Assembly: GCA_030432595.1 (NCBI GenBank)
Contig: JAUIGU010000001.1
Span: 62,001-126,000 of the forward strand
Source of the DNA: Phycisphaerae bacterium
Lineage (GTDB): Bacteria; Planctomycetota; Phycisphaerae; Phycisphaerales; Phycisphaeraceae
Length of the DNA stretch: 64,000 bases
Direction: 5' to 3'
Shown: positions 3,982-49,919 of the stretch, piece after piece
Numbering within the stretch: the stretch's first letter is position 1
Layout of the letters: each line of letters begins with the position of its first letter
Notes under the pieces: model-generated
The model's database searches: none
What the model saw: the letters and a program-made list of their open reading frames with translations, nothing else
What the model was told of the DNA's origin: nothing
Translations under genes and position numbers: made by a program

Positions 3982-4005
3982 CCGGCGGGGTTTATCCCGG
4001 CGGGG
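3982..4005. repeat. CGGGGTTTATCCCGG motif upstream of carB
   Basis: A CCGGCGGGG direct repeat brackets TTTATC. Nearly the same core (GGGTTTATCCCGG) recurs at 7686-7701 and 54543-54557, each time between genes. It can form a short hairpin (CCGGG/CCCGG). Here it sits 7-30 bases before the carB ATG, within the expected leader. Function unknown: either a small REP or a control site. Confidence 0.4.
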
Positions 4006-4140
4006 TCACGCGGCCGCGGTCACGACTGCACTTAAAATGAGCGCCCGCCGGGGCGCGGCTAAATTCGCGACAGCGTAGCAGGCCGACTTGGGCGACGCAT
4101 GCCCTTGAAAGCTCAGAGGTTTACAAAAACACCCGCCCGC

Positions 4141-38007: not shown

Positions 38008-38158
38008 CGGGGTTCGGGGTTCGGGGTTCGGGGTTCGGGCGCAGCGTAGGAGGTCGACCGCTTTGTTCATGATGGGTTGTTTTGACTTTTCGTCTTCATA
38101 AGGCCGGAGAACTTTCATCAATCACGTTGCCGGCCCGAACCCCGAACCCCGAACCCTG
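38008..38158. repeat. Opposed GGGTTCG heptamer arrays
   Basis: Left arm 38008-38039: four copies of GGGGTTC/GGGTTCG. Right arm 38131-38158: three copies of the reverse complement CCCGAAC. The arms can pair around a 90-base spacer. The left arm begins two bases after the smpB stop, and the right arm runs into the 5' end of the following transporter gene. Confidence 0.93.
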
Positions 38159-38224
38159 TCCCCCGGCGCGCCGCCCCTCCGCCTGCTCCTGCTCGTCACG
38201 CTGCTGGAGAACGCGGCGTCGGCG

Positions 38225-39555: not shown

Positions 39556-40251
39556 TCACACCGCCGAGGCCGGCGCCACCGCCGATGACACGTCCGCGAC
39601 GCGGTCGGGCCCGACGACGTAGACGCGGTCGTTCGCCTTGGGCTGCACACACTTCATGCCCGTGAACGCACCGAACGCCGGCAGCAACGCGCAGCGCGGG
39701 CCGAACACGAACGCCGGCAGACGCATCCGGTCGCCGCGACCACTCGCGCCGCCGAGCCGCACCGCGGGGTGGACGTGCCCGGCCATGACCGCGGCGTCTT
39801 CACGCTCGACCGGCTCGTGGGCATACACGACATCGCCATCGCGCACCGGCGTGTCCCACACCTCAATGCCCAGGTACTCCGGCGGGTCGCCGGCCCCCAC
39901 GTCGTGGTTGCCGCGCACGTTGTATATGTCCAGATACGACACGCGGTCGCGCCACCCGCGCAGCCGACGCAGCAGCGAATCGGTCACGCCCGCGCGGCTG
40001 TGGAAGAAGTCGCCCAGGATGATGAGCGACTCGGCCGCGCTCGACTCGCACACCCGCGCGAGCCGGTCGAGCGTGTCGCCGTTGCAGGCGTCGGGCACGG
40101 GCACGCCGGACAACCGAAAGTGGTCGGCCTTGCCCAGGTGCAGGTCGGTGACGATCACCGTGCGCGTGTCGTGCTGCACGACGACGCGCTGCGGCAACAA
40201 CTCCCAACGCCGGTCGGCCCAGTCGATGTTCAACGTATTGGCCATGATCAT
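39556..40251 (-). CDS. pdeM: Ligase-associated metallophosphoesterase PdeM
   Basis: A 231-residue calcineurin-like phosphoesterase of the group linked to the Lhr/ligase repair operon. Motifs: VTDLHLGKADHFR (D-x-H), LGDFFHSRAG (G-D-x-x-H), VRGNHDVGAG (G-N-H-D), AHEP and MAGHVHPAV (G-H-x-H). Members act as DNA or nucleotide phosphodiesterases in DNA-damage response. The first ATG has AAGGAG eight bases upstream. It is the last gene of the leftward repair cluster, separated from the helicase gene by the large inverted repeat at 40325-40670. Confidence 0.92.
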   Translation of the reverse strand: MIMANTLNIDWADRRWELLPQRVVVQHDTRTVIVTDLHLGKADHFRLSGVPVPDACNGDTLDRLARVCESSAAESLIILGDFFHSRAGVTDSLLRRLRGWRDRVSYLDIYNVRGNHDVGAGDPPEYLGIEVWDTPVRDGDVVYAHEPVEREDAAVMAGHVHPAVRLGGASGRGDRMRLPAFVFGPRCALLPAFGAFTGMKCVQPKANDRVYVVGPDRVADVSSAVAPASAV

Positions 40252-40324: not shown

Positions 40325-40670
40325 CCGCCAAGACGCCAAGGCAGCCAATTTGAAAGTCATATCACAGAGAACGCGGAGACACAGAGGCACAGAGTAAGAA
40401 AGAACTGGCCACAGATTTCGCAGATGACGCAGATGAAATCAGAAAAGCATGGAAACAGGATGCACAGAATGATCAAGATGAAGACAGAAACAAAAGTACA
40501 TCCTGATCATCATGCCCATCCTGTCCCTGCCTGAATCTGCGTCATCTGCGAAATCTGCGGTTCATAATGTTTTCCTCTGTGCATCTGTGCCTCTGTGCCT
40601 CTGTGCCTCTGTGTCTCCGCGTTCTCTGTGATACTTCCTCGATTCCTTGTCGGTCTTGGCGTCTTGGCGG
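40325..40670. repeat. Large multi-arm inverted repeat between helicase and pdeM
   Basis: Three nested perfect arm pairs: CCGCCAAGACGCCAAG (40325-40340 with 40655-40670, 16 bp); a 35-bp pair 40360-40394 with 40599-40633 (CACAGAGAACGCGGAGAC core); and a 23-bp pair 40412-40434 with 40535-40557 (CAGATTTCGCAGATGACGC core). A fourth imperfect pair (CAGGATG/CATCCTG) lies inside. The right arm has extra CTCTGTGC octamers that the left lacks. The motifs themselves (CGCCAAGACGCCAAG, CACAGAGGCACAGAG, CACAGATTTCGCAGAT) are known to recur across phyla. It fills the whole gap. Confidence 0.95.
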
Positions 40671-40677
40671 CCGATCG

Positions 40678-43143
40678 TCACACCTTGCCCACCGCGTTTT
40701 CGAGTTTCGAGACCATCGCCGTCACGCGGTTCTCCCAGCTCTGGCTGGTCAGGTGTTGTTCCCGCAGCCGCTCGGCCCACAACGGGAACGCCAGCGGCGT
40801 CAACCGCCCCGGCTCAACAAGGGACAGCGTCTCTTCGGCTATCGCGTCGAGCGCCGTGCGCAGCCGGGCGACCTCGAGTTGCCGTTCGAGCACTTCCCGC
40901 TTCGCCTGGTCGAGCAGCAGGTTGTCGGGGTCGAAGTCGCGGAACACGTCGAAGAACAGCTCGCTGGACGCCTGCAGTTGCCGGCCGCTGACGGATTGCC
41001 CGGGGTAGCCGACGTTGATGAGCCCCGCGATCCGCGCGATGTCGCGGAATTGACGGCGGGCGAGCTGGCCGGTGTCCACGCAGGCGAGCAGGTCTTCGAT
41101 GAGGTGGTCGGTGCCAAGCAGCGCCCGCCACCCGGATTCGTCCAAGTCGAACGGCTCGGGCGAGAGTAGCTCGATTCCGTAATCGGTCACCGTTACGACC
41201 ACCGTGCGCGGCGATGCTCGGGTCAGGCGCAACGCGAGCAGCGCGCCGAGCCCTTCGTGGATGGACCGGCCGCGCAACGGATAGAGGAAGCGGTGGTGCC
41301 CGTCGCGGGTACGCACCGCCTCGATCAACAGCTCGCCGTCTCCGGGGATGCGGGACCACTGCGCTTGGAGTTCGAGCAGCGGACGGATCGCTTCGAGTTC
41401 GGGCGTGTCGAATGTGCCCTGCCGGGCGCGGTCGAGCTTGTCGCGCACCGCGGCGGCGAGCTGCGTGGACAGCGGGCTCTTGCCGCCCTGCCAGCGCGGG
41501 ACGGTGGCCTTGGTGCCCCTGGCCTTGCGGACGATCGCGGCCATGCCGCGCACCTGCACGAGTTCCAGGAGGTGTCCGGCGAAGACGAAACGGTCGCCGG
41601 GCTTGAGGTAGCCGACGAAGTTTTCCTCGACCGTGCCGAGCTTCTTGCCGTTGGCGAACTTGACGACGATCGCGGCGTCGGAGGTGATCGTGCCGATGGC
41701 CATGCGGTGGAACTTCGCGATGCGCGGGCCCGCGACGCGGTAAAAGCCCGGGCGGTGCTCGTCTTCCACGACCCGCGCGAACTGGGGGTAGACCTTCAGC
41801 GTCTCGCCGCCGCGGATCACGAAGTCCAGGCACCACTTCCACTCTCGCTCGGTCAGTTCGGCGAACGCCCGTGTCGTCTTGACTTCCTCGCGCATCGCCA
41901 CGGCGTCGAACCCGCCGCCCATCGCGCAGGTCACCAGGTGCTGCACCAGCACGTCGAGCGGGCGGTCCAGCGGCCGGCGCGACTCGATCCTCCGCGCCTC
42001 GCCGGCGCTGCGCGCCGCAGCGAAGTCGAGCACCTCCAGCGCGTTGGTCGGCACGCCGAGCAATCGACTCACCGCGCCCGGCCGGTGCCCGCTGCGCCCC
42101 GCGCGCTGCAGCATCCGCGCGACGCCCTTGGGCGAGGCCACCTGGATCACCTGCTCGACCGGCGAGAAGTCCACGCCCAGGTCCAGCGACGACGTGCACA
42201 CGCAGCACTTCAGCCCGCCGACGCGCAACAGGTCTTCGACCGCCTTGCGCGTCTTGCGGTCGATGCTTCCGTGGTGCAGCGCAACTTTTCCGACCCAGTC
42301 GGGGCGCTGCGTCTGCAATCGGTTGAACCAGATCTCCGCCTGGCTGCGCGTGTTGGTGAACAGGAGCGTCGAGCCGGCGCTCTCGATCGCGTCGATGACC
42401 TGGTCGACCAGCCGGAGCCCTAAGTGCCCGGCCCAGGGGAAGCGCTCGATGCTTTCGGGCAGCAGCGTGAGCAGCTCGAAGGCCTTGTGGTCGGGGCCGT
42501 GGATCAACTCGCCATTGTCTGCGTGGCTTCCGAGCAGCGTGTCGCGGGCTTCGTCGAGGTTGCCGAGCGTCGCCGACAGGCCCCACGTCTGAAGCGTGGG
42601 GTTCCAGCCGCGAAGTCGCGCGAGGCCCAGCTCGGTCTGCGTGCCGCGCTTGGTGGACATCAGCTCGTGCCACTCGTCGACGATGACGGTTTGAACGCCC
42701 GCAAACTTCCGCTCGGCGTCGGCGTAGCTCATCAAGACGGACAATGACTCGGGCGTAGTCACCAGGCACGACGGCAGCCGCTCCTTCTGCTTCGCCTTCA
42801 CGCTCTGCGACACGTCGCCCGTCCGCCGCTGCACCGTCCACGGCAGACCGAGCGCGTCGATCGGGCGATTGAGATTCTCCTCCGTATCCGTCGCGAGCGC
42901 CCGCAGCGGCGTGATCCACACCACGCGTGGCCCGACCGTCGACAGGTCCTTCCACGCTTGCCGATCCGGGTGCTCGTTACACCAGCGCATCAGCGCCGGC
43001 AGCCAGACCGAGAACGTTTTGCCCATCCCCGTCGGCGCGTGCACCAACCCCGACCGGCCCGCGAGCTGCGCCTCCCAGCACTGCTGCTGAAACGCGAACG
43101 GCTCGCCCACCGTCTCACGGAACCATTGCTCGACGGGGTTCAT
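40678..43143 (-). CDS. Ligase-associated DEXH-box helicase (Lhr type)
   Basis: A DNA helicase of superfamily 2, 821 residues, like the Lhr-C/mLhr group encoded beside ATP-dependent ligases. Walker A is APTGMGKT (36-43), Walker B VDEWHE, motif III SATLGN, and RecA2 carries VCTSSLDLGVDFSPVEQV, with QRAGRSGHRPG as motif VI. A winged helix and the long Lhr C-terminal part follow. It translocates 3' to 5' and unwinds RNA-DNA or DNA duplexes. It starts six bases from the GCCACAAAA-type repeat at 43149, so repeat DNA is its leader. Confidence 0.95.
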   Translation of the reverse strand: MNPVEQWFRETVGEPFAFQQQCWEAQLAGRSGLVHAPTGMGKTFSVWLPALMRWCNEHPDRQAWKDLSTVGPRVVWITPLRALATDTEENLNRPIDALGLPWTVQRRTGDVSQSVKAKQKERLPSCLVTTPESLSVLMSYADAERKFAGVQTVIVDEWHELMSTKRGTQTELGLARLRGWNPTLQTWGLSATLGNLDEARDTLLGSHADNGELIHGPDHKAFELLTLLPESIERFPWAGHLGLRLVDQVIDAIESAGSTLLFTNTRSQAEIWFNRLQTQRPDWVGKVALHHGSIDRKTRKAVEDLLRVGGLKCCVCTSSLDLGVDFSPVEQVIQVASPKGVARMLQRAGRSGHRPGAVSRLLGVPTNALEVLDFAAARSAGEARRIESRRPLDRPLDVLVQHLVTCAMGGGFDAVAMREEVKTTRAFAELTEREWKWCLDFVIRGGETLKVYPQFARVVEDEHRPGFYRVAGPRIAKFHRMAIGTITSDAAIVVKFANGKKLGTVEENFVGYLKPGDRFVFAGHLLELVQVRGMAAIVRKARGTKATVPRWQGGKSPLSTQLAAAVRDKLDRARQGTFDTPELEAIRPLLELQAQWSRIPGDGELLIEAVRTRDGHHRFLYPLRGRSIHEGLGALLALRLTRASPRTVVVTVTDYGIELLSPEPFDLDESGWRALLGTDHLIEDLLACVDTGQLARRQFRDIARIAGLINVGYPGQSVSGRQLQASSELFFDVFRDFDPDNLLLDQAKREVLERQLEVARLRTALDAIAEETLSLVEPGRLTPLAFPLWAERLREQHLTSQSWENRVTAMVSKLENAVGKV

Positions 43144-43148
43144 GCGGT

Positions 43149-43261
43149 GGCCACAAAAGGCACAAAAAACACAGAACTAAAACAAGAACGACAAAAGCAA
43201 AAGCAAAATCAAGTGACTATCCCGACCATTTCATTTTGTGATTTCTGTGCATTTTGTGGCT
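43149..43261. repeat. Inverted repeat (GCCACAAAA type) between ligase and helicase genes
   Basis: The left arm GCCACAAAAGGCACAAAA near 43147-43170 and the reverse of GCCACAAAATGCACAGAAA at 43240-43260 can pair. A-rich purine sequence fills the centre. The ligase stop codon TAG (43262-43260) is at the very edge of the right arm. AT-rich compared with all neighbours. Confidence 0.88.
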
Positions 43262-44880: not shown

Positions 44881-45134
44881 AACCACCGATGAACACGGAT
44901 GAACTCCGAAGCATTTGAACCGCAGATTTCACAGATGCCGCAGATTCAGACGTGAATCAGAGTGACCAAATCGTCGGAGCAGTCGAACAGCGTAGAACGC
45001 TGATAGACACGTCATAAGAAAACAAAAGACCAAAAGGCAACAACGGTTTTCCTCCATTGCTTCATCTGCGCGATCTGTGAAATCTGCGGTTCCGCCCGGT
45101 ATCAATCCGTGTTTATCCCGATTCATCGGTGGTT
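44881..45134. repeat. Multi-arm inverted repeat between exonuclease and ligase genes
   Basis: The outer arms AACCACCGATGAA (44881-44893) and TTCATCGGTGGTT (45122-45134) are perfect, as are the inner 20-base arms GAACCGCAGATTTCACAGAT (44917-44936 with 45073-45092); ACACGGAT/ATCCGTGT lie between. The spacer of about 135 bases is AT-rich. The right arm supplies the last six residues (TTDESG) and the stop codon of the exonuclease. Related in build to 40325-40670. Confidence 0.95.
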
Positions 45135-48683: not shown

Positions 48684-49745
48684 ATGATCGCCTCGCCCCG
48701 TCGACCGGACCGCCCGAACTGGACACCGCATGCAGCGGGGTTGTGGTGTCTTCTGGTGTTCCTGATGTTGACCGGCTGCGCCGCGGCGCCGACGGCCACC
48801 GCGCCCGCGACGCCGACGGTGGTCGGCACGCTGGAACTGAGCGACCCGCAGTCGTGGCCGGGCGATCTGAAGATCCCGCTGCACGCGTCGGGCCCGTACC
48901 GCTACGCCGACGTCGCGCTCAACGGCAGCCAGGTCGGGCGGTTCCTTTTCGACACCGGCGCGAACCGCACGGTGGTGGACAACGGCCGGGCCAACCGGCT
49001 CGGGCTTCCCGACGACGGCGGCGGCACGACGACGGGCATCGCCGGCCAGACCCAGACGCGCTACCGCCGCGCCGAGCAGCTCGCGCTCAAGGCTTCGACC
49101 ACCGACGCGGAGGCGCGGTACCGGCTGCACACCGGGCCGGCCCGCATGATCGCGATGGACATGCAGAAACTCGGCGGGATGCACGGCGGGACGGGGGGCA
49201 TCCTCGGCTTCCGCGGGGTCGATGCCGTGCCCTTCACCTTCAACCCCGCCGACGCCTCGCTCACGCTGCACCGCCCCGACACGTTCCGCCCGCCGGCCGG
49301 CACGACGCGCGCCCGGCTGCACCGCTTCCACGGCCTGCCCGTCGTCGAGGCCGAGCTGTTCGGGCGGGACGACGACCGCGTCAAGGTGCGCTTCATCCTC
49401 GACACGGGCATGAACACGTCGGTCTCGCTGCCCCACACCGTGCTGCAACAACACCCGGCGGTGGCGTCGGTCCCCGTGACCGGCAGCGGCAACTCGCGCG
49501 GCGTCGGCGGCACCCTGGCCAGCAACAACACCTGGCTCAAGAAGACCCGCATGTTCGGCCTGGACCTGCGCCACCTGCCGGTCAGCTTCGAGCCTATGCC
49601 CGCCCAACTCCAGCCGCGCACCGGCCCGCCCCAGGGACGCATCGGCATGGCGGTGCTCGCGCACTTCGAGCTCACCTTCGACGCGCGGCGGGGGTATGTG
49701 TATGCGCGGTATCTCGGGGAGAGCAGTAAAGCAGGAGAGCAGTAG
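48684..49745 (+). CDS. Retropepsin-like aspartyl protease lipoprotein
   Basis: Lipoprotein signal with lipobox LTGC (Cys32), so it is exported and lipid-anchored. Two aspartyl-protease half sites: FLFDTGANRTVV (Asp near 90) and FILDTGMNTSVSL (near 243), each followed by a hydrophobic-Gly strand (GILGF, GRIGMAVLAHFEL), so one chain may form a pseudo-dimer instead of the usual retroviral-type homodimer. 353 residues from the ATG at 48684. The last residues (SSKAGEQ) and the stop are encoded by the octamer repeat that begins near 49721. The substrate is unknown. Confidence 0.82.
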   Translation: MIASPRRPDRPNWTPHAAGLWCLLVFLMLTGCAAAPTATAPATPTVVGTLELSDPQSWPGDLKIPLHASGPYRYADVALNGSQVGRFLFDTGANRTVVDNGRANRLGLPDDGGGTTTGIAGQTQTRYRRAEQLALKASTTDAEARYRLHTGPARMIAMDMQKLGGMHGGTGGILGFRGVDAVPFTFNPADASLTLHRPDTFRPPAGTTRARLHRFHGLPVVEAELFGRDDDRVKVRFILDTGMNTSVSLPHTVLQQHPAVASVPVTGSGNSRGVGGTLASNNTWLKKTRMFGLDLRHLPVSFEPMPAQLQPRTGPPQGRIGMAVLAHFELTFDARRGYVYARYLGESSKAGEQ

Positions 49746-49848
49746 AACAGGAGATCAATAGAGCATTAGATTGAGACACGAAACACCGGAGTTTTGTCTC
49801 GTTGTCCGTGTTTCTTGATTTACTGCTCTACTGTTCTACTGCTTTACC
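49721..49848. repeat. Opposed octamer arrays after the aspartyl protease gene
   Basis: Left arm 49721-49770 in units like AGCAGTAG, AACAGGAG, ATCAATAG, AGCATTAG. The right arm 49815-49848 has the reverse units (TACTGCTC, TACTGTTC, TACTGCTT). A small inner pair GAAACAC/GTGTTTC lies in between. The left arm starts inside the protease gene and carries its stop codon TAG (49743-49745). Confidence 0.92.
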
Positions 49849-49919
49849 GCCAGTCCGGATAACCCGCCGCCGTCCGCCCGCCACGCAACCCGCCGGGTCA
49901 CCCGCCCGATACCCCGGAC

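Follow-up and report, generated by a model that had tools for sequence, protein, structure and literature searches.

Nested gene-less hairpins at a helicase-pdeM junction of a Phycisphaerae bacterium: probable miniature derivatives of GxxExxY nuclease elements

Structure of the nested element

A 346 bp repeat (40325-40670) occupies the spacer between a ligase-associated DEXH-box helicase gene (40678-43143, reverse strand), about 7 nt beyond its stop codon, and a pdeM-like metallophosphoesterase gene lying downstream (39556-40251, reverse strand) in a Phycisphaerae bacterium. The locus raises the question of how inverted arms of several repeat types came to be enclosed within one another at a single gene junction. 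All coordinates refer to the window, which is the whole stretch of 64,000 nucleotides that was analysed.

The element is comprised of four inverted arm pairs nested as A(B(C(D))), with left arms on the forward and right arms on the reverse strand. Each arm is a short tandem run of heptamers (two to four per arm, seven in the right B arm) with a spacing specific to its class, and all four modules display the same plan of about three inverted units per arm. The outermost hairpin, A (unit CGCCAAG, spacing 8,9), has its left arm, CCGCCAAGACGCCAAG followed by a degenerate third unit, at 40325-40349 and its right arm at 40646-40670; the CCGCCAAGACGCCAAG stretches (40325-40340 and 40655-40670) pair at 16 of 16 positions, and pairing over 24 nt is 88%. 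Hairpin B (unit CACAGAG, spacing 9,8,8) has four units in its left arm (40360-40394) and seven in its right arm (40575-40633), the inner three of which (40575-40598) are extra tandem units, while 40360-40394 and 40599-40633 pair at 35 of 35 positions. The arms of C (unit C[AG]CAGAT, spacing 9,9, 9,10 or 10,10) are located at 40409-40434, with three units spaced 9,9, and at 40535-40560, and 23 of 23 positions pair between 40412-40434 and 40535-40557. The innermost pair, D (unit CAGGATG, spacing 9,9 or 9,10), is imperfect in both its left (40455-40480) and right (40499-40524) arms. The first-pass annotation had described this arrangement as three perfect nested arm pairs around an imperfect CAGGATG pair, and its description is borne out in full. 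The extra CTCTGTGC units that it reported in the right B arm are likewise real, given seven heptamers against four on the left; of the "unequal growth after pairing" that it read into them, only the difference in unit number stands.

The predicted RNA fold of the element has an energy of -192.7 kcal/mol, compared with -97.5 +/- 5.2 kcal/mol for shuffled sequences (z = -18), and the element matches no curated family or covariance model in Rfam.

The arms of a hairpin almost always belong to the same class where both could be called. Among 20 A hairpins, the two arms agree at the heptamer positions in 70-100% of cases, while at the 2-nt spacer preceding the third unit they agree in only 30% and 20%. 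Part of the perfection of the arms thus reflects the unit consensus rather than pairing, and the combination of conserved heptamers with a variable spacer suggests that the heptamers are recognised, not that one arm was simply copied from the other.

Modules across the source genome

The source genome (4.39 Mb in 73 contigs) contains more than 40 such hairpin sites. We catalogued 40 elements, typed by eye from the arm calls with a few stray unit runs omitted: 13 consist of a single module and 27 of several. Left-handed arms precede right-handed arms in all 40, and nesting is consistent in all 27 multi-module elements. The order of the modules varies, A lying outside C nine times and C outside A twice. 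The linkers between modules measure 8-21 nt, and no linker homology, which was sought as the mark of a composite moving as a whole, was found within or between elements. The variable orders and unrelated linkers indicate that modules combine freely and that the composite is not one moving unit. Beyond the source genome, the best matches to the window composite cover only part of it, and the pairing of A outside B recurs in many phyla; the whole composite repeated as one unit in many genomes, which had been named as the case that would count against stepwise assembly, was not found. The proposal that the stack was built stepwise, like Russian dolls, is accordingly upheld by modules that stand alone, in several combinations and in both A/C orders with unrelated linkers; that proposal did not recognise the arms as the termini of GxxExxY nuclease elements (see below).

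Other elements of the window include a second nested element at 44881-45134, in which an outer hairpin F (44881-44909 and 45105-45134) holds C arms (44917-44945 and 45064-45092) in its loop, and an E-type hairpin with CACAAAA units (43149-43260) between the ligase and helicase genes; E-like arms also flank a GxxExxY gene elsewhere (L186). A further inverted pair of tandem-unit arms (GCAGTAAAGCAGGAGAGCAGTAGAACAGG) at 49723-49850 is apparently another family of the same kind, and inverted GGGGTTCGGGGTTCGGG arrays at 38008-38165 are a different repeat type. Some records of Anaerolineae, Cyanobacteria and Bacteroidetes (L132, L115, L141, L098) display one-sided runs of A then B arms with no clear right half.

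Association of the arms with GxxExxY genes

Two arm pairs with large loops, picked by arm pattern alone, were found to enclose a GxxExxY gene (L040 and L063, the latter gene with an internal stop). The GxxExxY genes of full-length elements belong to the PF13366 (PDDEXK_3)/TIGR04256 family of PD-(D/E)XK nucleases. Across 22 related genomes, about 41 of the 49 PF13366 genes lie between matching heptamer arms, mostly less than 100 bp away. The scores for inverted arms upstream and downstream reach 97, and 33 of the 49 genes score above every control window (windows shifted by 600 bp; maximum 37, median 20.5). The remaining genes, about eight, have no convincing arms. Two of these loci (L174 and L175) encode longer proteins in which the GxxExxY domain is joined to an acidic or glycine-arginine tail; they have no flanking arms and may be domesticated.

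All four arm classes of the window element flank a PF13366 gene somewhere: A at nine loci (L164, L200, L227, L228, L233, L236, L237, L238 and L245), B at three (L183, L169 and L225), C at four (L040, L176, L191 and L250) and D at one (L199). Most of the GxxExxY genes seen in other phyla likewise lie between matching arms, and arm-flanked genes were found in records of Bacteroides, Bernardetia and Sphingomonas; one such gene of Sphingomonas parapaucimobilis, with CGCGAAG arms, is located between fabD and fabG (L206). The window element is itself gene-less and is filed as a derivative rather than a full GxxExxY element, because it lacks a nuclease gene of its own. An A-type nuclease was not found in the source genome, although A hairpins are the commonest there, which leaves a source that was lost, is missing from the assembly or belongs to another clade. 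At two loci (L047, 748-1552, and L054, 770-1333), A (and C) arms pair across about 560-800 bp and surround genes of other kinds, not GxxExxY, which may have been captured.

The association was also approached from the repeat side. A genome scan for the A-B repeat alone matched 46 stretches from many phyla. Spread by viruses was not retained as an explanation, a single viral contig and no phage record having been found. PF13366 is present in all 11 genomes selected by the A-B repeat alone, compared with 22 of 41 relatives (p = 0.003), and within the repeat-picked genomes 19 of 22 loci score above the control maximum of 30, with the gene flanked by A arms in Acetothermia, Anaerolineae, Proteobacteria, Planctomycetes and Tolypothrix. 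Repeat number and PF13366 are correlated (rho 0.50, p = 0.0009); repeat number and Y1 transposase are not (rho 0.16, p = 0.31).

The GxxExxY nuclease

Judged by its catalytic D...ExK residues and its family profile, the GxxExxY protein falls into the PD-(D/E)XK superfamily; E23, D63, E73 and K75 are among its invariant residues. An AF2 model is confident (pLDDT 96.5). A PDB search with the protein sequence gave no match, and a Foldseek search of the model against the PDB gave none under E 0.001 (best E 0.02 or worse). The best Foldseek matches are weak; they include the Cas4-like SSO0001, DrdV, Bax1, splicing and homing endonucleases and a Holliday resolvase. Most of them are nucleases, and several are of PD-(D/E)XK type.

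Arm class clusters on the nuclease tree, with 12 changes against a shuffled mean of 17.9 (0 of 200 shuffles), the classes having been set by simply counting unit endings, two of them by hand. Clustering is strongest for the arm class ending in GAT (3 changes against 7.5 when shuffled, 0 of 500), and the GAG and AAG classes are intermixed.

Comparison with a genome of the same genus

In the same-genus genome G001, the helicase-pdeM junction is about 90 bp long and has no element, and the junction is likewise without an element in every other relative examined that has it. At the empty G001 junction (L069, about 4000-4015), the sequence GGCGTCCTGGCGG resembles the right A arm at 12 of 13 positions, which may be a scar or chance. 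Several other element sites of the source genome are also empty in G001, and the sites compared between the two genomes include empty and INTERMEDIATE sites. Intermediate stages with fewer arms, which the first-pass annotation had proposed to look for at the helicase-pdeM junction, were therefore not to be found there; one is present at the element at 44881-45134, which has the structure F(C()C)F in the source genome and in G001 is the outer F hairpin only, whose loop of about 80 nt contains no C arms. This is a fewer-arm stage, C having been either gained in the source genome or lost in G001.

Six gene-bearing units of the source genome span 450-479 bp from arm to arm, and at all six syntenic sites tested both the gene and its matching arms are missing from G001. 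At one site (L187) the flanks join in G001 with a 1-bp gap, and the gaps at other gene-unit sites measure 24-198 bp; at L184 the gap holds 1.3 kb of other sequence, and at L186 a different hairpin family is present. Presence and absence in two species fit either gain or loss at these six sites, although PF13366, with seven copies in the source genome, is absent from the whole of G001.

Discussion

Arms and gene co-occur in many phyla and are present or absent as a unit, and the modules nest in more than one order. The 346 bp repeat is in our view probably a stack of four gene-less hairpins (A, B, C and D), each a miniature derivative of a GxxExxY mobile element. The full-length element would be about 450-480 bp long, with inverted arms of about three heptamers each around one GxxExxY PD-(D/E)XK nuclease gene. 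The nuclease would recognise heptamer arms belonging to its family, whether on the element that encodes it or, acting in trans, on gene-less copies, and would cut, after which the hairpin or its copy would be joined in without target duplication. No target-site duplication was detected, the longest word shared by the flanks averaging 4.33 nt against 4.01 expected. Where a hairpin enters the loop of an older one beside a gene end, Russian-doll stacks would result. That the nuclease moves the hairpins, and that insertion targets hairpin loops, is inferred. The helicase-pdeM stack itself is most likely a selfish insertion just past the helicase stop codon, and its effect on pdeM expression, if any, would be secondary.

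Other explanations of the hairpins were weighed against this one. The hairpins might be older, kept independently or mobilised otherwise, with GxxExxY a homing-type gene specialised in their loops. The genes do sit in loops, which also hold other hairpins and, at L047 and L054, other genes, and a nuclease clade tracking arm class is expected under homing as well. We nevertheless regard homing as improbable, since at six of six syntenic sites G001 has neither the gene nor arms of that type, and none of these sites has a matching hairpin without the gene. Selection for gene regulation, with the paired tandem repeats bound by a global regulator or a nucleoid protein, would account for the conserved heptamers beside a variable second A spacer, as for protein binding, and for the location of the elements at gene ends; the idea was put forward for comparable paired sites of Geobacter metallireducens (PMC2700814). 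Against it, the sites are not conserved between genomes of the same genus and, in many phyla, these arms surround a nuclease gene; we give regulation very little weight as the origin of the arms.

Movement of the hairpins in trans by Y1 (HUH) transposases, in the manner of REP/REPIN sequences and their RAYTs, fits the three Y1 transposase domain matches of the source genome and the fact that REPINs are likewise short hairpins without a gene of their own (PMC3116915). Yet Y1 genes, unlike PF13366, are uncorrelated with the repeats, and the heptamer arms that surround PF13366 genes are absent around Y1 genes at the ten loci checked, several of which are flanked by other palindromes, one of them GTAG-type; such movement is highly unlikely here. 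Short palindromes (GTAGGGTGGGCACCGCCCACC in L260) lie on either side of Y1 transposase genes of related genomes (L260, L256 and L259) and represent a distinct REP-like system in these bacteria. Equally hard to credit is a local origin of the arms, with no mobility, through replication slippage and template switching (palindrome correction). The extra CTCTGTGC units in one arm do resemble slippage, but the same sequences occur at unrelated sites by the dozen and across many phyla, and the spacer mismatch between arms speaks against arm-to-arm copying. The empty syntenic sites largely exclude an origin in place, while slippage may act secondarily.

The REPIN/RAYT system is the closest to the proposed GxxExxY elements in its way of working, since short gene-less intergenic hairpins are in both cases apparently moved in trans by a genome-encoded nuclease-type enzyme that is flanked by the same motif (PMC3116915). 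The enzymes differ, HUH Y1 in one case and PD-(D/E)XK in the other, and REPINs are REP doublets whereas the arms described here consist of spaced heptamers. A GxxExxY gene inside the hairpin and nested stacks of several families also set these elements apart, and among them we found neither a cognate Y1 gene flanked by the repeat nor GTAG/CGTC-tagged REP palindromes, the arms being made of CGCCAAG, CACAGAG and CAGAT units. With the MITEs of DDE insertion sequences they share gene-less copies, inverted ends and a gene-bearing parent; in contrast to these, they have no DDE transposase, their ends are tandem heptamer arms and the target-site duplication of DDE-type MITEs is not seen. The sites of G. 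metallireducens (classes 1-4), called global regulator binding sites by Aklujkar et al. (2009, PMC2700814), are similar in form, with three to five tandem 7-8-mers in opposite-strand pairs at variable distance in intergenic regions, and the CACGGAGA-type arms, read in reverse, match the class 2 unit TCTCCGTS. As far as the available part of that paper goes, the sites are read as regulator (IHF/HU) sites, unlike our reading, and no tie to a nuclease gene, mobility of the pairs or nesting was found in it.

A search of the open-access literature found no paper tying GxxExxY to repeats, mobility or a role in mobile elements. The name occurs in only two papers of the full text searched, in one of them as a mention in passing, and the arm sequence words occur in no paper there. 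The link between GxxExxY and repeat mobility is thus provisionally new, as the search covered open-access text only.

With somewhat less assurance than for the window element, we favour the view that GxxExxY nucleases define a very small (about 460 bp), transposase-free class of self-mobile elements in many phyla. Their heptamer-arm hairpins would move in trans and enter one another's loops, and many of the intergenic hairpin repeats of environmental bacteria that lack an explanation would be members of this class. Should the nuclease by itself suffice to move its hairpin, mobility would here be based on a PD-(D/E)XK enzyme and need no transposase, and the elements would be, to our knowledge, among the smallest self-mobile ones. 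GxxExxY elements may thereby explain a whole class of bacterial repeats, for which they provide a candidate enzyme, a unit length and a candidate mechanism in Planctomycetota, Proteobacteria, Cyanobacteria, Chloroflexota, Bacteroidota and others, and the GxxExxY family gains a candidate biological role.
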